Source of the DNA: Methyloprofundus sp.
GTDB taxonomy: Bacteria > Pseudomonadota > Gammaproteobacteria > Methylococcales > Methylomonadaceae
DNA length: 64,000 bases
NCBI GenBank assembly: GCA_012960135.1
Contig: DUBW01000072.1
Location: 1 to 64,000 of the forward strand
Reading direction: 5' to 3'
In this document: piece after piece, positions 25,546-63,421 of the stretch
Numbering within the stretch: position 1 is the first letter of the stretch
How the letters are laid out: the number at the start of each line of letters is the position of its first letter
The notes under the pieces: model-generated
Seen by the model: only the letters and a program-made list of their open reading frames with translations
Database searches by the model: none
What the model was told of the DNA's origin: nothing
Program-made: the position numbers and the translations under genes

Positions 25546-25835
25546 AGCGGGGAGTCCCTACTTTTGCGAAAGCTCATTTTGGGCATCCAAGCCCACAACG
25601 CGGCAAAAGATTAACGGGGCTAATTAAAATCTACGATGCCCTGATTCGTCCTGTGCCCACTTATAAAAAACCTAGAGGGGTTTTTATTTAGTGACCTCAA
25701 ATGGCTTGACGCGATGTCGGAATGCCTTGTATTTTCTCTACGCAAAAAGACGCTTCGAGAAAACACCCGTCCCTATCGCTATCAGGGACTAAAAATCTTC
25801 ACTTCACTTAAGCTCCGTTTCCAGAATTTTAAGCG
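25546..25835 (+). repeat. 290-bp dispersed repeat, copy 1
   Basis: This sequence occurs again, inverted, at 61685-61975 with only scattered substitutions. Both copies contain a frame reading GVPTFAKAHFGHPSPQRGK to a TAG, a hairpin AAAAACC...GGTTTTT, and TTTTCTCTACGCAAAAAG. No terminal inverted repeat is evident and no transposase is present. The 597-base gap 25259-25855 contains this element in its right half; the left half shows no feature. Confidence 0.85.
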
Positions 25836-53126: not shown

Positions 53127-53926
53127 AGTAGCGGCGTCACCCTCTTGTTTGAGGCGTTTGCAATGGTCTTAATTGAGCGAGAAATGCCAGTGGATCGGAA
53201 AAGCGATCCAGTCAGATGATCCATCCACAATAATTCGGTTAGGAGTAGATGAGACACTGCCAAAGAAAGGTCATAAATATGTCATCTTGGGTGTTGATCT
53301 GGACGCATCAGGTGTCATCCATGTCTGTAAAGAAAAAGGCAAGGCAATGCTGAAAAGTATTCAGCAACACCTGGAAAAAAAGGGGTTCCAGAGGAACAAG
53401 TCACGGAGCTGAGTATGGATCTTTCACCCGCTTTTATTGCTGGCGCAGCCACCTACTTTCGACCGGTTTCATGTGGTCAAATTACTCAACGAGGCTATGG
53501 ATAAAGTACACGCTCCTAAAAAATCGAGAAAATCTTTCGGCTAAACAAGAAGCATCACGGGTAGAAATGATTCCACCTTGTCCAAAGCTAGATGAAGCCT
53601 ATCGACTGAAAGTTCTATTCAATGTTTTATGGGGAATGCCCAACAAACCAGCGGCATGCTCCTTCCTGACGCAGTGGTGCAACGCAGGAGAAGTCGCTAA
53701 AATACCGACCTTCTTGATCTTTGCAAAAACAGTTAAAGCGCATTGGTCAGGCATTGTTCACTTTGTTGAATCACACATCACTAACGGTATATTGGAAGGC
53801 ATTAATAGCAAGGTACAATTAGCCAAAAGACGCGCTAGAGGTTACCGCAATATCAACAACTTTATCAACATGATTTACTTTCTCTGTGGAAAAATGAAGT
53901 TTGTTTACCCACTGCATTTCACATAG
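53127..53926 (+). pseudogene. ISL3-family transposase, disrupted
   Basis: The pieces in order are: SSGVTLLFEAFAMVLIEREM from 53127; an internal deletion; GKAIQSDDPSTIIRLGVDET (active-site Asp region) at about 53197; TELSMDLSPAFIAGAA near 53405; FDRFHVVKLLNEAMDKV in another frame near 53460; and a C-terminal frame from about 53555 to 53926 with GILEGINSKVQLAKRRARGY. At least two frameshifts and one deletion separate them, and the N-terminal zinc finger is gone, so the element cannot move itself. The terminal repeats were not identified. A second C-terminal scrap of the same kind is at 35577. Confidence 0.9.
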
Positions 53927-55707: not shown

Positions 55708-55928
55708 CATTCTTTCACCAGGGTCTAACAATCATTCACTATAGCTTATAAACCAGCAAAGGTCTTATATTTACTATATCAGGACTTACTTTTTCTAACA
55801 CCTTAAAACCTTATACTCTGAAGTCCTTTTTTTCATTTGAGCCAACCGTAAAATACTATTAAAGTCAAAGTTGCTTAATAATAGCTTTCTTAAATTCTTA
55901 ATATTCTTTTTTATTACAGGAAATAACC

Positions 55929-56179
55929 ATGTCTGCATTCAAGAAATACCCATGTTCTGTTTATGATCACATTTATGATGAAGAACTAGGTGATGCTGAC
56001 AGCGGTATTGAGCCAGATACTTTGTGGGAAGATATATCAGAATACTTGGGTTTTGCCCGGAATGTGGTGCCGAAAAAATGCGTACATTGAGCCGGTTTAA
56101 ACAGATGTTTAATGCGTCCTCTCTAAAGTCTACTTTTATGAGTTCAGTTCAAACTGAGGTGGTTAAAGGGTCGCGATAG
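55929..56179 (+). pseudogene. Rubredoxin, decayed
   Basis: After a good Shine-Dalgarno (AGGA) the frame reads KKYPCSVYDHIYDEELGDAD, then SGIEPDTLWEDIS, clearly rubredoxin. The second cysteine of the first CxxC is Tyr (CSVY). After that, two single-base insertions in T runs near 56046 and 56053 throw off the frame: WV appears one frame over and CPECGAEKMRTLSRFKQMF two over, ending at 56179. The read-through frame stops at 56090. Without two intact CxxC pairs it could not hold iron. The missense change argues that at least part of the decay is real and not a sequencing error. Confidence 0.88.
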
Positions 56180-56259
56180 ATAAGTTAGAAGTCTTTGTTT
56201 TAGAAGTGGACCTAAGTCAATAGAAAAAGTTTAGACTTATTGATGGAGTAGTGGTTTAA

Positions 56260-56280
56260 GTGCCGCCTGTAGGGCGGCAC
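56260..56280 (-). terminator. GC hairpin after the DUF4136 gene
   Basis: GTGCCGCC and GGCGGCAC pair around a five-base loop, 7 bases past the stop. The GTAGGGCGGCAC half is shared with the repeat at the murJ stop, so it may also be a small repeat. Confidence 0.65.
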
Positions 56281-56287
56281 AGAGCGA

Positions 56288-56884
56288 TTATTTAACTTTA
56301 GGTGGGAATTCCTCTAATATTTTATTGACATATTTTTGCGCAAGTTTATCACTTTTATTTCTATCGGAACCTTTGGGTAAGCGACCATCCGCAGAGCCGC
56401 GCCATATAAGCTGGTCTGTTTTAGGGTCGAGTATATCAATAATGAGTGTGCCCTGTTTGTAATGGGTGGCCTGAGTTTCAGGGCCAGTGTTGTAAGCAGC
56501 CCCATATCCACGGCCATAATAACCATATCTGCCCCGATAGCTATAACCTGGATACAGACCGTTATAATTATTATAGGTGCGTATATCAACTCTATCATCT
56601 ACTACGATACTGTAATTAACTAGAAAATCGACCTTTCCGGCATCGGCTGCTAGTTTAGTATAATGTTGGCTAAGAAATTGAGCATTGATTGCATCGCGAA
56701 TACGTTTATCCATGATGGGATCAAGATATTTTAAACTTGAAGCATTGTACTCATTTCTGCCGTGCCAGTGATAAGTCTTGAAATTAGAAAAATCAATTTT
56801 ATTATCATAGTCGGTACTCACCGTGAGAGATGAGCAGCCAGTCATAAAAATTGATAAGATAATTATGCAAAGATAATTTTTCAT
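56288..56884 (-). CDS. DUF4136 lipoprotein
   Basis: A 198-residue lipoprotein with a clear lipobox (FMTGCSS, Cys at about 17). The DUF4136 body has DYDNKIDFSNFKTYHW near the start, a Tyr/Gly-rich stretch in the middle (YRGRYGYYGRGYG), and the end LIIDILDPKTDQLIWRGSAD. These proteins are thought to be anchored to the outer membrane; their role is unknown. The ATG at 56884 places the signal peptide properly; the upstream start at 56914 does not. Confidence 0.85.
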   Translation of the reverse strand: MKNYLCIIILSIFMTGCSSLTVSTDYDNKIDFSNFKTYHWHGRNEYNASSLKYLDPIMDKRIRDAINAQFLSQHYTKLAADAGKVDFLVNYSIVVDDRVDIRTYNNYNGLYPGYSYRGRYGYYGRGYGAAYNTGPETQATHYKQGTLIIDILDPKTDQLIWRGSADGRLPKGSDRNKSDKLAQKYVNKILEEFPPKVK

Positions 56885-56980
56885 AGGTGCCTTTATTAAG
56901 GTAAGTGATTTCATAGGGAAAAATCACATGTTTATTTTAATATATTCTAATATATAAAATAATTAATGTAAGCGGAGGAT

Positions 56981-57217
56981 TTATTTGGAAGTTAATATGG
57001 TGAGTGCCTTTTGTATATGTTCGGCTGTTTCTATCCCTAAAGCTGTTAGATAGCCCCCGTCATCCTGTGTCACCAGATCTTTTTCATGTAGGCGCTTTAT
57101 TGCGGCAATTGTTTCCGGGGAGGCAGTATGGTGTACTTTTATTCCTTCCTGCGTCGTACTGAGGTTATAACGTGCTAAAATAGCTAATTCATCGACTAGG
57201 TCACTTGAAATTGGCAT
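56981..57217 (-). CDS. TIGR02647 family protein
   Basis: A 78-residue soluble protein. The pattern SSDLVDELAILARYNLSTTQ, then KVHHTASPETIAAIKRLHEK and a C-terminal TALGIETAEHIQKAL, is that of TIGR02647, a small gammaproteobacterial family that looks like a winged-helix. No function is known. It is divergent from ftsH with 122 bases between starts. Confidence 0.82.
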   Translation of the reverse strand: MPISSDLVDELAILARYNLSTTQEGIKVHHTASPETIAAIKRLHEKDLVTQDDGGYLTALGIETAEHIQKALTILTSK

Positions 57218-57339
57218 GGTTCGTCCTTATTATTATATGAGAGGGTTTGCTTTTCTAGGTTAATTTATACCATTAAACAGACGAGCAGAATACAGAAAAA
57301 ACAAAGAAAAAAATTCTAGGTTTAATTTAGAGGAATATT

Positions 57340-59277
57340 ATGATGAAAATTCTTATCAGGGTCGCAATGTTTGTTGTGATTGGCACTATGTTGTTTAGCA
57401 TAATGGGCAGAATGCAGCCTGGTTATGAGAAAAATTATTCAATTTTATATTCCGAATTTATCGATGATATCCGCAATGGTTCGGTATCTGAAGTTACGAT
57501 TACGGGTGAAACGATTAAAGGTAAACTGCATGGTGGTGAGCCTTTTGTTACTTATAATCCAGGCGATGATCACCTGATCGATGACTTGATTGAATATGGC
57601 GTAAAAATTAAAGTAGCAATGCCGGAAAAACAATCCATGCTCACGCAGATTTTTATTTCCTGGGCTCCTATGTTGTTGCTGATTGCTGTCTGGGTTTACT
57701 TTTTCCGTAAACAACAGGGCGCAAGCGGTGGCGGTGGCGGTCAGATGGGTATGGGGAAAAGCCGTGCAAAATTACTGGAAGAAGATGAAGTTAAAGTAGG
57801 TTTTGCTGATGTTGCCGGTGTAGAAGAAGCTAAAGAAGATGTTATGGAAATGGTTGATTTCTTAAGAGATCCATCTAAATACGAATTTGTCGGCGGAAAG
57901 ATCCCTCATGGAGTGTTATTAGTAGGCCCTCCTGGAACAGGTAAAACCTTATTGGCTCGAGCGATTGCAGGAGAGGCGAAGGTTCCTTTTTTCTCTATTT
58001 CGGGTTCTGACTTTGTTGAAATGTTTGTTGGGGTAGGAGCGTCTCGCGTACGTGATATGTTTGAACAGGCAAAAAAACGCGCACCTTGCATTATATTTAT
58101 TGATGAGATTGATGCTGTGGGTCGGCAGCGTGGAGGCTCTGGCCCTGGCGGCGGCGGTAATGATGAGCGTGAGCAAACCTTAAACCAGTTACTGGTTGAA
58201 ATGGATGGTTTTAGTGGCAATGAAGGTATTATTGTTATCGCAGCAACTAACCGCTCTGATGTACTGGATAAGGCTTTATTAAGACCGGGACGGTTTGATA
58301 GAGAAGTGCATGTAGGTCTGCCAGATATCAAAGGTCGCGAGCAAATTCTCAAGGTACATATTAAAAAAATACCTCAAGCAGAAGATGTCAGTATTAAAGA
58401 TTTAGCGCGTGGTACACCTGGATTTTCAGGTGCAGAGCTGGCTAATCTGGTTAATGAAGGCGCTTTACTTGCGGCACGAAATAATAAGCGGGTTGTCAAT
58501 ATGGATAATCTTGATCGGGCCCGAGATAAGTTATTGATGGGTGCTGAAAAGCGCTCAATGGTCATGCGCAAAGAAGATTTGTTAATGACTGCCTATCATG
58601 AGGCGGGGCATGCAATCGTTGGGCAACATGTACCTGAGCATGATCCAGTCTATAAGGTGAGTATTATGCCTCGTGGGGGCGCTTTAGGTATTACCATGTT
58701 TTTACCCGAGCGCGATCAATACAGTGCCAGTAAAGATAAGCTGGAAAGTCAGATTTCAGGATTGTTTGGGGGGCGTATTGCCGAGGCAATTATTTACGGT
58801 AAAAATAAAGTGACTACTGGCGCATCAAATGATATTGAACGTGCTACACAGCTAGCCAGAAGTATGGTTACCAAATGGGGCTTGTCGGATAAGCTAGGGC
58901 CTATGGATTATGGAGATAATGAGGGCTATATGGGTTCGCAAAGTAAACCTATGTCTGAACAAATGGCACAAGTTATCGATGAAGAAGTGCGTATAGTGAT
59001 TGATAGAAATTATCAACGCGCTGAAGATATCTTAAATAAGAATATTGAGATATTACATAATATGGCGCACGCTCTAATGGACTGGGAAACAATCGATAAA
59101 TTCCAGATTGCAAAGTTATTGGATGGTGAAAAAATTGATCCGCCTGTTGATGAGCCAGAAGAGGATGATACAGATAACAGCGCTCAGGTCGATGTAGAAA
59201 CTGAAACGGTTGAAGATAGCGATAATGACATATCATTAGATAGGAAGGCTGGGCAAGCTGGTCATCAGGAAATGTAA
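57340..59277 (+). CDS. ftsH: ATP-dependent zinc metalloprotease FtsH
   Basis: FtsH degrades misfolded membrane proteins and regulators such as LpxC. The 645-residue protein has two membrane helices (about 5-23 and 105-122) around a periplasmic domain, the AAA module with GPPGTGKT near 197 and the [11 protein letters not shown] and second-region RPGRFDREV motifs, and the protease HEAGH site near 420. The long acidic tail is typical. It is preceded by GAGGAATATT and not by rrmJ, so it lies outside the usual rrmJ-ftsH operon. A strong terminator follows. Confidence 0.97.
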
Positions 59278-59303
59278 GTTATTTTAACTTTATGCTGAAG
59301 AAG

Positions 59304-59327
59304 CGGGCTTAATAGCCCGTTTTTTTT
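59304..59327 (+). terminator. Rho-independent terminator after ftsH
   Basis: CGGGCT and AGCCCG pair around a four-base loop and are followed by eight T, 27 bases after the ftsH stop. Confidence 0.92.
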
Positions 59328-59350
59328 GTTCCTTTGATTCATTAAAAATC

Positions 59351-60106
59351 ATGATGAGTATAGCTGAAAATGCGCGCATAAAAATGGACCCGTCCTGGAA
59401 AGAACGATTGCAAGGTGAATTTTCACTTGAATATATGCAGTCGTTACGCGAATTTCTAACCGAGGAAAAGCAACAGGGCAAGATAATATACCCGCAAGCA
59501 GCGCAATATTTTACAGCCTTAAACCTTACGCTATTTGATCAAGTTAAAGTCGTTATTTTAGGGCAAGACCCCTATCATGGCAAAGGCCAGGCACACGGTC
59601 TTTGTTTCTCGGTTCCACCTGAGGCTAAAGTCCCACCTTCATTAATCAATATCTACAAAGAATTGCATAACGACCTAGCTATTCCTAGGCCTGAGCATGG
59701 TTGCCTAGTTAGTTGGGCTATGCAAGGTGTGTTATTGCTTAATAGCGTACTGAGTGTTGGACAAAACAATGCGGCTTCTCACCAAGGCAAAGGCTGGGAA
59801 CAATTTACAGATAAAATAATAGCTGAAATCAATGAGCATGCAGAGCATGTGGTATTTATGCTCTGGGGCAGTTATGCCCAGAAAAAAGGGATATTGATTG
59901 ATAGGACCAGGCATTGTGTTCTGCAAGCACCGCACCCATCACCCTTATCGGCATATCGAGGTTTTTTTGGACAAAAGCCATTTACTAAAGCGAATAAATA
60001 TTTAGTTGAGAACGGTAAATCGAAAGTTCAATGGGATTTACCTGATACCCTTACTGCAATAAATCAGTTTGTGCGAGCTAATGAAATTAATCAGAAAGTC
60101 TCATGA
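59351..60106 (+). CDS. ung: Uracil-DNA glycosylase
   Basis: Ung removes uracil from DNA to start base excision repair. The 251-residue protein has the catalytic GQDPYHG motif near residue 76 (Asp acts as the base), the uracil-binding LLNSVLSV segment and the DNA-binding HPSPLSAYRGF motif near 197. ATGATG start; either could be used. It is separated from ftsH by the terminator, so it has its own promoter. Confidence 0.97.
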   Translation: MMSIAENARIKMDPSWKERLQGEFSLEYMQSLREFLTEEKQQGKIIYPQAAQYFTALNLTLFDQVKVVILGQDPYHGKGQAHGLCFSVPPEAKVPPSLINIYKELHNDLAIPRPEHGCLVSWAMQGVLLLNSVLSVGQNNAASHQGKGWEQFTDKIIAEINEHAEHVVFMLWGSYAQKKGILIDRTRHCVLQAPHPSPLSAYRGFFGQKPFTKANKYLVENGKSKVQWDLPDTLTAINQFVRANEINQKVS

Positions 60107-60269
60107 TAGAGATATTTAATTTTTTAGCATACCGGTTTCTTCGGCCTCACAAAATATTAGCTATTGACTACCTTTGAGTAAAATAAGCTGATCAAATGGC
60201 CCCGGACTAACATAGGCGGTTGCTAGACCCATGCGGTGGTTACAAACTCCTCCAAAGGAGACGCTATCA

Positions 60270-60473
60270 ATGGATATGTTTAAACGCGTGCCTCCGAGCC
60301 CTCTTAATATTGGGTTACAGGCGTTACCGCTCTGGCGTGTTACAGATACTCAGGGGGTTGCTTTAAGAAATCTGCGTCATCTGTGGCAATTCCCAGGTCT
60401 TTTTTTATCAGATCAATTGATTCAAAAGCTTCCTGAGGTCGTTCAGAAGAAATGGTCATGGCTTCTAAGTTAA
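60270..60473 (+). CDS. Small hypothetical protein with good RBS
   Basis: A 67-residue ORF starting at 60270 with AAAGGAG nine bases before the ATG. The sequence MDMFKRVPPSPLNIGLQALP is Pro/Leu-rich and ends KKWSWLLS. I do not recognise it. It overlaps, antisense, a possible decayed reverse frame described below. The good ribosome-binding site is its main support. Confidence 0.4.
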   Translation: MDMFKRVPPSPLNIGLQALPLWRVTDTQGVALRNLRHLWQFPGLFLSDQLIQKLPEVVQKKWSWLLS

Positions 60474-61083
60474 CAGTGGAAGGGTCTTCTGCCCCGGCAT
60501 CAGTTAGAGGTGTTTCCAGTTGTTGCTCAGAGGAGTCGTTGTACTTATGTTCTGGTGTTTAATGTTGATGATCTTGAATGTCATTGAACATGATTATTTA
60601 CCTGGCTGATTGAACTAAGACTAGAGGCAATTAATAAAGGCAGAGCTGTTAAAGTAACGATGGTATTTGGTTTCATATCCCTTGAATCTGAAAAGGGTAT
60701 GTCTATATGCTATTTAACCGCTAATGATGCTAAAAATTAGCTGTTTCTGCTAGTTTTTTTTGATAAAAATCTATAAAAAATGTACGCTTAATTAAGGTGT
60801 TAGTGTCTTTTATAGTTTGAATGCTTGAAAAATCGCCATAGAAGGTTTTTTAAGTATGATCTTGGCCATATTATGTAATACTTTATATTGTTGAGAATGA
60901 GTAGCCTGTATAAGTACTTGCTATTAAGTTAAAGCAAAAAAGTAGAACAGTTTACTGAAAAATATCTACTTTCTGCTATGCTTGGGAGTGAGGATTTAAT
61001 AATATGCGGAAGTTTGACACATCCGCGGGTAATTACCCCCCCCCTAATGTTTTCCAAAAATAATAATTAATCAGGAATAGACT
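60474..61083. other. Long gap, with a possible decayed secreted-peptide frame on the reverse strand
   Basis: On the reverse strand an ATG at 60676 opens a signal-peptide-like 31-codon frame (TIVTLTALPLLIASS) that stops at 60581. One base later a second frame runs, with one further stop, to about 60340 as a polar acidic stretch (LETPLTDAGAEDPSTVNLE). This may be one frameshifted secreted-protein gene. The part 60700-61083 is AT-rich and presumably carries the promoter of the HdeD-like gene; I saw no other feature. Confidence 0.3.
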
Positions 61084-61665
61084 ATGAATACTAATACACA
61101 ACTAGATTCAGTTTTTACGAGTCAACTAGGTGAAATACATGAGAAATGGGGTTGGCTGCTTGCCCTGGGTATTGCATTTATACTTCTAGGAACGATTGGC
61201 CTGGGTATGACTTTTGCGCTAACTATGGTTAGCATGTTATTTTTTGGATTTTTGATGCTATTTGGCGGTGTATTTCAGTTAGTTCAGGGGCTAGGATGCA
61301 GGGGCTGGAAAAGTATTGTGATTCACGTCCTGATTGCGATTGCCTATTTAATTGGCGGCGTTATTATTATCACCAATCCTTTACTAGCCTCGGAAATCAT
61401 TACTATGATGATTGCCGCTATTTTTATGGCGGTTGGAGTGATGCGTGTGGCTATGGCTATCCAGCTTAAAGCAGTAAAAGGCTGGTGGGTATCATTAGTG
61501 AGCGGCCTATTAGCCTTGATCTTTGGTGGGATGATTATGACTGCCTGGCCGATGTCGGGTACCTGGATTATCGGATTGTTAATCGCCATAGATATGATTT
61601 TTCATGGCTGGGGTTATGTTGCTTTAGCATTAGTTGCTAAGGATACGCGTAATCAAGTTGATTAA
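61084..61665 (+). CDS. hdeD: HdeD-family membrane protein
   Basis: A 193-residue inner-membrane protein with six helices in two homologous halves, as in HdeD, an acid-resistance membrane protein of enterobacteria. The N-terminal cytoplasmic tail is followed by WGWLLALGIAFILLGTIGLG and later WWVSLVSGLLALIFGGMIM. The family is broad and its role outside acid stress is unclear. A Shine-Dalgarno (AGGAAT) precedes the ATG. It is alone, followed by repeat copy 2. Confidence 0.85.
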   Translation: MNTNTQLDSVFTSQLGEIHEKWGWLLALGIAFILLGTIGLGMTFALTMVSMLFFGFLMLFGGVFQLVQGLGCRGWKSIVIHVLIAIAYLIGGVIIITNPLLASEIITMMIAAIFMAVGVMRVAMAIQLKAVKGWWVSLVSGLLALIFGGMIMTAWPMSGTWIIGLLIAIDMIFHGWGYVALALVAKDTRNQVD

Positions 61666-61684
61666 TGCAGGAATAACTGACTAG

Positions 61685-61975
61685 CGCTGAAAATCCTGAA
61701 AATGGAGCTTAAGCGAAGTCAAGATTTTTAGTCCCTGATAGCCATAGGGCCGGGTATTTTCTCGAAGCATCTTTTTGCGTAGAGAAAATACAAAGCATTC
61801 CGACATCGCGTCAATCCATTTGAGGTCGCTAAATAAAAAACCCTCTAGGGTTTTTATAAGTGGACGCAGGGCGAATCAGGGCATCGTAGATTTTAATCAG
61901 TCCCGTTAAGCTTTTGCCGCGTTGTGGGCTTGGATGCCCAAAATGAGCTTTCGCAAAAGTAGGGACTCCCTGCTT
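61685..61975 (-). repeat. 290-bp dispersed repeat, copy 2
   Basis: Inverse of copy 1 (25546-25835) along its full length, with roughly one difference per ten bases. The reverse strand again reads GVPTFAKAHFGHPSPQRGK and a TAG at the same place. Its right end borders directly on the reductase fragment at 61983, so its insertion or recombination may have cut that gene. Confidence 0.85.
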
Positions 61976-61982
61976 ATCATAT

Positions 61983-62230
61983 TCAAGCGTGGTTATATCT
62001 CCTTTGCTGCTGACGGTCTATGGCTATTACCTCAGCGCCGCTGATAACATGAATACTTTTTTGCTCTAATTGAGCAAAGGTTTTCATAATAATAGTCTGT
62101 TCTATATCCGGTTTGCTAAATCCATGTGAAAGAATAGGGCGCGAATAGTAATCATCAGTTTCCTTGGTCAGAACTGTAATTTCAGTATCTGGGCTGACTT
62201 CTTTGGCCTGGTCTGTAAACAAATCCTGAG
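61983..62230 (-). pseudogene. Rubredoxin-reductase-like FAD oxidoreductase, N-terminal fragment
   Basis: The reverse strand reads KEVSPDTEITVLTKETDDYY, then SRPILSHGFSKPDIEQ and IHVISGAEVIAID. This is the early part of an NAD(P)/FAD oxidoreductase of the rubredoxin reductase type (the DxxFYSKPxLS pattern). The first FAD-binding GxGxxG stretch is missing and replaced by cytochrome-type sequence in the same frame, and nothing continues past 61983 where the dispersed repeat lies. So only about 75 codons remain. Confidence 0.7.
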
Positions 62231-62239
62231 CAAAGGCAA

Positions 62240-62400
62240 TATCACCTTGCTGATCACGTACGGTTACATCCAGGATAACCAAAAGGTAATTTATGCCCAG
62301 TCAGACCATTGATGTTTATAGTAAAATTTAATATATCACCAACAAATAAAGCATCATTAATTTCAAGTTGCGCAGCATCTGCGAAAGGTTTAAAGCCCGG
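62240..62400 (-). pseudogene. Multiheme cytochrome-type protein, internal fragment
   Basis: On the reverse strand, EINDALFVGDILNFTINING is followed by LTGHKLPFGYP, and after a small deletion and frame change by LDVTVRDQQGDIAF. LTGHKLPxGYP...VTVRDxxG is a pattern I know from the beta-sandwich region of multiheme c-type cytochromes. No CxxCH is left. The last part is joined in frame to the reductase fragment, so the two remnants are fused by deletion. Confidence 0.6.
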
Positions 62401-62656
62401 TACTTATGATCTTTGGCTAATAGCTAGTCTGAAATCTGATAATAACAACAAAATCAGCATTCCTTTAGGACAACTAACCGATGCAGGTGAACAGCAATTT
62501 CACCTAAGATCTCAGTCAAACAGATCAGCAACAAAGGATCTTGCTGTTAAACAAGTTGTTATTACTGCAGACAAGCAAGACCCGTTCAAACAAACCCTGT
62601 TAATAGGCTCACCTAGTTTATTTCAAAACGTATTTTATCGTGACCAATATGGATGA
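62387..62656 (+). pseudogene. Unidentified ORF remnant
   Basis: A frame reading GLKPGTYDLWLIASLKSDNN and later AVKQVVITADKQDPFKQTLL. The style is that of an extracellular or anti-sigma-factor-like beta domain, but I cannot name a family. Its upstream part is antisense to the cytochrome fragment, and no ribosome-binding site is seen, so it is probably a scrap like its neighbours. Confidence 0.4.
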
Positions 62657-62675
62657 CTGTACAAATCGGGCCTGA

Positions 62676-63320
62676 GCAAATCAAGCTGACTTATCTACCG
62701 ACTACCTGGGGACTTTTATCAATCAGCTCTTACCCAAAGCTGCCTGCGCGAAATCAAAAAATCAATCATTAAACGATGCTTTTGCTGCTCAAATTGTCTG
62801 GGGTAAAGACTTATTATCAACGAAACTTTGGATGACCATGGTCGTACCTGTAGCACTGCTCATAGGCAAGATAATAACCATACAATCGACCCAAAACATA
62901 TTGCCCGCTTGCCTAATAATGACCCTTTATTTATCGCCGAAACCAACCCGGAATTAGCCGCACTGGAACAACCCTTATTATTACGCCAGTTTTGTTTATT
63001 ACTCGCAAACATAGATGCCTTTGATAAACCTGGTGAAACTACACACCTAAGATCTAGACCTGGATAATATGTATTTTTCATCACCTTTAGCACAAAAGGG
63101 GCGCGAATTATTTCATAGTAAAGAACACAGAACCGGACAGCGTAAAGGCTGTCATTTAAATACTAGAGAAAACAGCTCCAGTTCTCTGCAAAATGGCAAC
63201 CGCAATACAGGGGTTGATAATATGCTCGACAATCCACTTAAACTGGTCTGAAAAAAAACCATCAGATGGTGGTTTTGGAGACAAAAAGCAAGGAAATTAA
63301 TTAGCCAGGCCATGGAATAT
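62676..63320 (+). pseudogene. Diheme cytochrome c (peroxidase-like surface type), decayed
   Basis: Pieces in different frames read in family order: a part with AFAAQIVWGKD near 62780; ETLDDHGRTCSTAHRQDNN near 62830; ARLPNNDPLFIAETNPELAA; LLANIDAFDKPG; then MYFSSPLAQKGRELFHSK near 63070, GTGQ-like TGQRKGCHL, NGNRNTGVDNMLDNPLK and, one frame over, PSDGGFGDKK. This is the order of large extracellular diheme cytochromes related to cytochrome c peroxidase. Both heme motifs are ruined: CSTCH has become CSTAH and CKGCH has become RKGCH. With at least three frame changes it is surely dead. Confidence 0.75.
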
Positions 63321-63394
63321 AAAAAGCAGGTAAATGATTTATTACTAATGGAAGCGCCTGAAACCGAACAAGAATAAAGTGTATTAGCCCAAAT

Positions 63395-63421
63395 CCAATC
63401 TAACAGACGCAGTTAGATTGG
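63395..63421. terminator. Perfect hairpin after the cytochrome remnant
   Basis: CCAATCTAAC and GTTAGATTGG pair perfectly around a seven-base loop. It may be the old terminator of the dead cytochrome gene. The following 160 bases to 63588 show no gene. Confidence 0.6.

Follow-up and report, generated by a model that had tools for sequence, protein, structure and literature searches.

A decaying stretch of a Methyloprofundus chromosome and a very probable reciprocal inversion through two of its genes

The stretch of Methyloprofundus DNA analysed here (the window; 64,000 nucleotides, positions 1-64000 of contig C72 in source genome G000, which comprises 2.50 Mb in 92 contigs and is 90% complete) contains five wrecked genes amid intact ones, namely, those for rubredoxin, rubredoxin reductase (RdxR), a five-heme cytochrome (MH), a di-heme protein (DH) and a TonB-receptor-like protein. 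Very probably, the region belongs to a Methyloprofundus-type chromosome and is in decay, one reciprocal inversion at the bases AGCC having cut RdxR and MH and exchanged their ends. We infer that selection on the wrecked genes had lapsed, and the case is one of ordinary gene decay, with one unusually well resolved step, the reciprocal inversion at four shared bases.

The remnants were located by tblastn of relatives' proteins against the window (Table 1). Those claimed in an earlier note on this DNA, RdxR and MH on the reverse strand and DH on the forward strand, are real, with families and coordinates right, and the decay that the note described, including the frameshifts and lost heme cysteines of DH, holds as well. 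The note further proposed that RdxR and MH had been fused in frame by deletion, and it pointed to a rubredoxin pseudogene 6 kb away. The pseudogene exists (PF00301, 32.2 bits) but appears to be the second end of the same event: the supposed deletion joint is best read as one of two reciprocal inversion joints, the other being at the rubredoxin remnant.

Table 1. Remnants, repeat copy and breakpoints around the inversion in the window
Feature	Position	Strand	Description and basis
Rubredoxin remnant	55908..56045	+	N-terminal two thirds, then frameshift near 56045; tblastn, 74% identity to L017:9899-10114:-
Rubredoxin CPECGA joined to RdxR AEKMRTL	56054..56089	+	three-frame reading; G010 rubredoxin-RdxR DNA
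Breakpoint A, microhomology AGCC (4 bp)	56090..56093	+	best joints of 4900 pairs; random-sequence controls
MH C-terminal tail RFKQMFNASSLKST..., severed from body	56094..56167	+	tblastn to L014, L015, L020 and L048 proteins
Segment between breakpoints	56094..62191	.	6098 bp; reciprocal joints, gene map, Pfam
TonB-dependent copper-receptor-like remnant	60164..60516	-	residues 30-147 of 691; frameshift and stop
288-bp dispersed repeat copy	61685..61972	+	right end abuts RdxR remnant; ends from 16-copy alignment
Last readable RdxR piece, TLEYDK	61973..61990	-	shifted frame, abuts repeat; three-frame reading against G010 protein; six residues, weak alone
RdxR remnant	62004..62191	-	about residues 24-86; tblastn, 68-72% identity to L017:8858-9880
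Breakpoint B, AGCC on minus strand	62192..62195	-	breakpoint scan
MH remnant	62193..62279	-	residues about 457-472 joined in frame to 597-611 (internal deletion); tblastn
MH remnant	62269..62385	-	residues 414-452, GHKLP motif, other frame; tblastn, 54-57% identity
DH remnant, first heme part	62390..63034	+	about residues 92-310, frameshifts and stops, left edge approximate; CSTAH at 62849-62863
DH remnant, second heme part	63045..63260	+	about residues 398-470; 76% and 83% identity; RKGCH at 63141-63155
DH remnant, C-terminal residues	63282..63374	+	58% identity to L013 residues 462-492

The two joints

The MH body stops at 62193, where its tail would be expected to start, and is followed by RdxR; the missing MH end is found 6.1 kb away, behind the rubredoxin remnant. 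At 62237-62193 (AFAQDLFTDQAKEVS), MH agrees with the L048 protein in 15 of 15 positions, and in the alignment of RdxR residues 15-86 at 62219-62004 (-), the portion before about residue 24 is actually MH sequence. To place the breakpoints, 70 x 70 pairs of positions (4900) were scanned, with the sides exchanged and the products scored against reference sets of seven proteins for RdxR and six for MH. The five top summed scores (189-190) were obtained at the five positions within the shared AGCC tract, with the next scores at 185 and lower. The best pair scores 56 + 134, whereas the existing joints score 34-37 against RdxR and 73-78 against MH; the maxima of the random controls (n=500 each) were 101 for both sites, 115 for the left site and 124 for the right site.

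The exchange yields an RdxR N-terminus and an MH C-terminus that are in register with the relatives, with no gap and no bases beyond AGCC. The restored RdxR joint reads AEKMRTLS followed by PDTEITVLTK, compared to AEKFRTLSPEAEITLLTK in the RdxR of G015, and the restored MH joint reads AFAQDLFTDQAKEVS followed by RFKQMFNASSLKST, compared to AFAQDLFTDQAKEVSRFKQMFDASTLKST in the MH of G002. The joints are oriented as an inversion would leave them. Between the breakpoints lie the MH tail, genes for DUF4136 and DUF5669 proteins, ftsH, ung, the copper-receptor-like remnant, a DUF308 gene, the dispersed repeat and the RdxR remnant. The left joint corresponds to the old rubredoxin-RdxR site because, in G010, this pair adjoins zinc-dehydrogenase-family, globin and UvrD-type helicase genes that are orthologous to the genes at 50-55.7 kb of the window.

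Had RdxR and MH once been neighbours on the same strand that were fused by a deletion, the rubredoxin remnant being a separate matter, one would understand why the fused frame at 61983-62282 runs for 99 aa without a stop, and MH does carry an internal deletion. However, the severed MH end was located at 56.09 kb, in register with the missing RdxR start, and a plain deletion would not place both there; a simple deletion is excluded because the ends that it would remove are both present, and this scenario as a whole appears highly improbable. We attach equally little weight to an assembly artefact, that is, a chimeric contig of unrelated loci. The assembly is indeed in 92 contigs and the case is judged from assembled sequence alone, but the two joints are reciprocal, lie on one contig and show no gap or extra bases beyond AGCC, and the gene damage extends to places away from the joints. 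There is barely any chance that the inversion proceeded through homologous recombination between copies of the 288-bp repeat: neither breakpoint is within a repeat and the joints are at AGCC in coding sequence, although one copy lies 220 bp inside the right breakpoint and, on contig C39, another is about 0.7 kb away from the displaced rhodanese gene.

The preferred reading is a reciprocal inversion at AGCC whose cuts would fall behind the N-terminal part of RdxR and immediately ahead of the C-terminal tail of MH. The exchange would have brought the rubredoxin-RdxR start up to the MH tail (56.09 kb) and the body of RdxR up to that of MH (62.19 kb), with the deletions, frameshifts and heme-cysteine losses occurring before or after the inversion. 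With equal base frequencies, a hand calculation gives four shared bases by chance at about 1.6% of joints, and the AGCC homology is thus only modest evidence of mechanism.

Gene order and dispersed repeats

The earlier note suggested looking in related genomes for intact versions at this place. An intact rubredoxin-RdxR pair is present in G010 in a matching left neighbourhood, but the pre-inversion order is seen in none of the relatives' loci that were mapped. The order DUF4136-DUF5669-ftsH-ung is conserved in 8 of 8 mapped loci (L038-L041, L047, L049, L051, L052). In G009, MH is faced by the ung side of this group, whereas the DUF4136 side would face MH here if the inversion were undone, and the rhodanese gene (PF00581) that adjoins DUF4136 in five of the eight loci has its best match here on contig C39. 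Thus, other rearrangements happened, and the inverted piece need not have measured 6.1 kb at the time of the event. The 288-bp repeats may have driven such other rearrangements at the locus. An ISL3-family transposase gene, apparently broken, is found in two frames at 53173-53926 (PF01610 above the cut-off in 53471-53926 and below it in 53173-53412).

The 288-bp repeat has 43 matches in its own genome at E 1e-5, 11 of which, including the copy in Table 1, are 245 bases or longer; the second copy in the window is at 25546-25835. Long matches elsewhere show 93-94% identity in G007, 78-88% in G010 and 71-75% in G001. The stretch 61670-61990 is strongly structured as single-stranded DNA (z -4.06), and Rfam at gathering thresholds gave no match in 53-64 kb. 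Classification of the repeat as a classical MITE was considered and dropped, as no terminal inverted repeats were visible in its alignment and a comparison of the repeat with itself gave an internal palindrome of 20 bp plus shorter matches. Its right-hand 72 bp are present at about 26 further places. Among seven such sites examined (L184, L185 and L189 among the loci, around 1300-1800), three share about 300 bp and four share parts, which points to a second dispersed element; inspection of the adjoining frames by eye revealed no obvious transposase.

Rubredoxin and rubredoxin reductase

The rubredoxin remnant at 55908-56083 exceeds the PF00301 cut-off of 23 bits and covers profile positions 1-31 of 47, beyond which the frame is broken; its first metal motif is altered (CSVYDH versus CSVCDH in G010). 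In G010, rubredoxin and RdxR are separated by 18 bp, and the 10-mer GCCGAAAAAA occurs near the rubredoxin end and again in the RdxR start, 96 bp apart. The window has this 10-mer once, at 56069, with rubredoxin sequence before it and RdxR sequence after it. From the comparison with this one relative, we infer an in-frame loss of 96 bp between the 10-bp direct repeats that would have fused rubredoxin to RdxR and, with it, would have taken out the first nucleotide-binding motif (GSGIAG) of RdxR. An intact second rubredoxin is encoded on contig C51 of the same genome, so the rubredoxin-RdxR pair is broken but rubredoxin itself is not lost. Elsewhere in the assembly, RdxR-like matches do not exceed 34% identity.

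In the window, the RdxR gene survives in pieces that amount to about one quarter of it. The remnant alone matches PF07992 with E 0.15, below the cut-off, so its identity rests on the match to relatives. The relative in G010 (L017) matches PF07992 (Pyr_redox_2) with E 7.6e-55, and its best PDB match is the rubredoxin reductase 2v3a, over residues 3-316 (E 3.5e-35). A rubredoxin gene adjoins the gene of this G010 relative, pointing to rubredoxin as its putative substrate; the gene in the window differs in being reduced to those pieces.

The five-heme cytochrome and the di-heme protein

In G009, MH is a protein of 638 aa with five CxxCH motifs. The N-terminal heme-bearing part was not found in the window, where the surviving pieces contain no heme motif, and intact MH is absent from the assembly; a 678-aa frame on contig C74, which is similar to MH at 41% over about 50 residues and 26% over about 140, was taken as a different cytochrome. 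MH passes no curated NCBIfam cut-off: among the multiheme models, ExtKL gave 48.3 of the required 250 bits and OmcA/MtrC gave 18.6 of 209.3. The only Pfam model passed is the short Paired_CXXCH_1 (21.4 bits, cut-off 20.6), and the structure model of MH is poor (mean pLDDT 44.4).

DH (670 aa with two CxxCH motifs in G009) is represented in the window by a remnant that spans about 62390-63374 (+) and whose two heme parts are 75% and 83% identical to L013. Two deletions, of about residues 311-397 and about residues 470-640, accompany the frameshifts and stops. The cysteine loss that the note had reported for both heme motifs was borne out, CSTAH and RKGCH reading as claimed. Both CxxCH motifs, with four cysteines and two histidines, are invariant in all 18 aligned homologs (one of them a short form, another read from an internal start), and the remnant lacks both. 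Altogether, 48 columns are invariant among these homologs in the alignable parts; 38 of these are kept in the remnant and 10 are changed, including one cysteine in each heme motif. The changed invariant columns, together with the frameshifts and deletions, mark this as decay and not sequencing noise. The assembly contains no second DH.

Judging by sequence profiles, DH is a distant relative of the di-heme CCP/MauG proteins. The profile of intact DH is similar over about 50 positions to proteins of this kind (PDB 6e1c, 3l4m, 1nml), with E 5.8e-8 for 6e1c, 0.0025-0.003 and, in one case, 0.042 for MauG entries, and 0.049 or weaker for CCP entries (0.24 for 1nml). DH differs from them by about 200 additional N-terminal residues and a C-terminal helical part. 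A phmmer search with the single protein found no CCP/MauG members; its matches were recA chains only, which we took as spurious. Membership in the MbnH family (TIGR04039) was rejected, with 19.9 and 27.4 bits against a cut-off of 362.85. In the DH structure model, which is of low confidence (mean pLDDT 58.6, with much of the heme region below 50), no CCP/MauG chain appeared among the best 50 matches listed by either Foldseek or VIA-align. The best Foldseek match has E 0.08, with Cu,Zn superoxide dismutase leading (N-terminal beta domain), and VIA-align likewise matched this domain to SOD1 variants (Z up to 9.5). For the C-terminal helices, the matches were helix bundles, the metal protein SmbP among them (Z 10.0, rmsd 1.4, 76 aligned); helix bundles match by chance, and nothing was concluded from this likeness.

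MH and DH are neighbours in G009 and G005. In G009 (L014:1-9491), DH and MH occur together with a discoidin-domain protein, two proteins without a family match and a TonB receptor, a group that is possibly a redox/metal-uptake cluster.

The copper-receptor-like remnant

Overlooked in the earlier note was the remnant of a TonB-dependent receptor, which aligns in two frames, at 69% and 53% identity, with L038:5621-7696:+ from G015 (tblastn, E 3e-34). This ortholog scores 441.2 bits with TIGR01778, just under the cut-off of 472.45, with the next model at 112.2, so we describe it as copper-receptor-like only. The remnant lies between ung and the DUF308 (HdeD-like) gene, and the G015 receptor likewise lies between ung and a DUF308 gene, with two extra genes on the ung side. 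The remnant is located within the same 7.5 kb as the other wrecks, and a TonB receptor adjoins MH in G009 also; a copper connection of the lost genes is possible in view of these positions.

Distribution among relatives

RdxR orthologs (53% identity or more) were detected in 9 of the 17 genus mates, the one in G007 being truncated; in the other eight, the best match is 36% or less. MH (54% or more) is likewise present in nine of the 17, with a broken form in G007 (53-66% by piece), and absent from eight. DH was found in three genus mates, split over two contigs in G005, and is absent from 14; in the order, DH relatives at E 1e-30 or better occur in 81 of the 301 genomes sampled, the genome of the window included. 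Because five of the genus mates are only 63-77% complete, some of these absences may be assembly gaps, and, given the fragmentation and completeness of the genome under study, an intact copy could similarly be missing from its assembly. In G001, which was matched to the symbiont of B. japonicus, none of RdxR, MH and DH was found.

In G007, MH is broken separately (L042:400-1773) into three pieces, with residues 277-412 and about 1-117 not found, and RdxR (L043:5916-6794) is without its first 46 residues but keeps residues 47-340; these lesions differ from those in the window. In four genus mates, one and the same gene, instead of rubredoxin, follows RdxR (L043:6812-7273, L044:1435-1896, L053:7870-8352, L056:8130-8612); its product in L044 is fatty-acid-hydroxylase-like (PF04116) and might be an electron-transfer client.

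Implications

The earlier note took the wrecks to indicate the loss of an extracellular or rubredoxin-linked redox system. To the extent that the rubredoxin-RdxR pair and the MH/DH cluster are both broken, this stands; however, a rubredoxin is kept elsewhere in the genome, and RdxR and MH are 0.58 Mb apart in G009, so they look like two separate systems damaged by one event. The literature search found no paper pairing Methyloprofundus with rubredoxin.

Inversions at short inverted homology are not without parallel. In Salmonella, inversions at short inverted repeats have been described, with junctions confirmed that carry more than 10 bp of microhomology (PMC3411829, in the available part of that report). 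The inversion described here resembles these in the short inverted homology at its ends and differs in that the homology is 4 bp, the event is known from an assembled genome and both joints are inside genes. Pseudogene-rich genomes are reported for two Methyloprofundus symbionts of deep-sea mussels, of the same genus as the organism studied here: insertion sequences make up over 20% of both genomes, most transposase genes are disrupted and the cytochrome bd oxidase genes are absent; the available part of that account (PMC8788690) makes no mention of the genes wrecked in the window. It is conceivable, though we consider it rather unlikely, that selection has repeatedly favoured loss of the redox and copper-uptake set as Methyloprofundus lineages took up life with a host or in some other stable niche; on such a reading, one inversion would have broken the core of two systems here, G007 would have broken RdxR and MH by different lesions, and the absence of all three genes from G001 would belong to the same pattern.

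The single-base view of the reciprocal inversion indicates that one short-homology inversion can break two unrelated genes together, and it calls for caution, since pseudogenes that seem fused in frame, or a pair that lies kilobases from one another, may be the two ends of one event. As for the organism, the findings suggest that RdxR, the five-heme and di-heme cytochromes and the copper-receptor-like gene became dispensable in this lineage.
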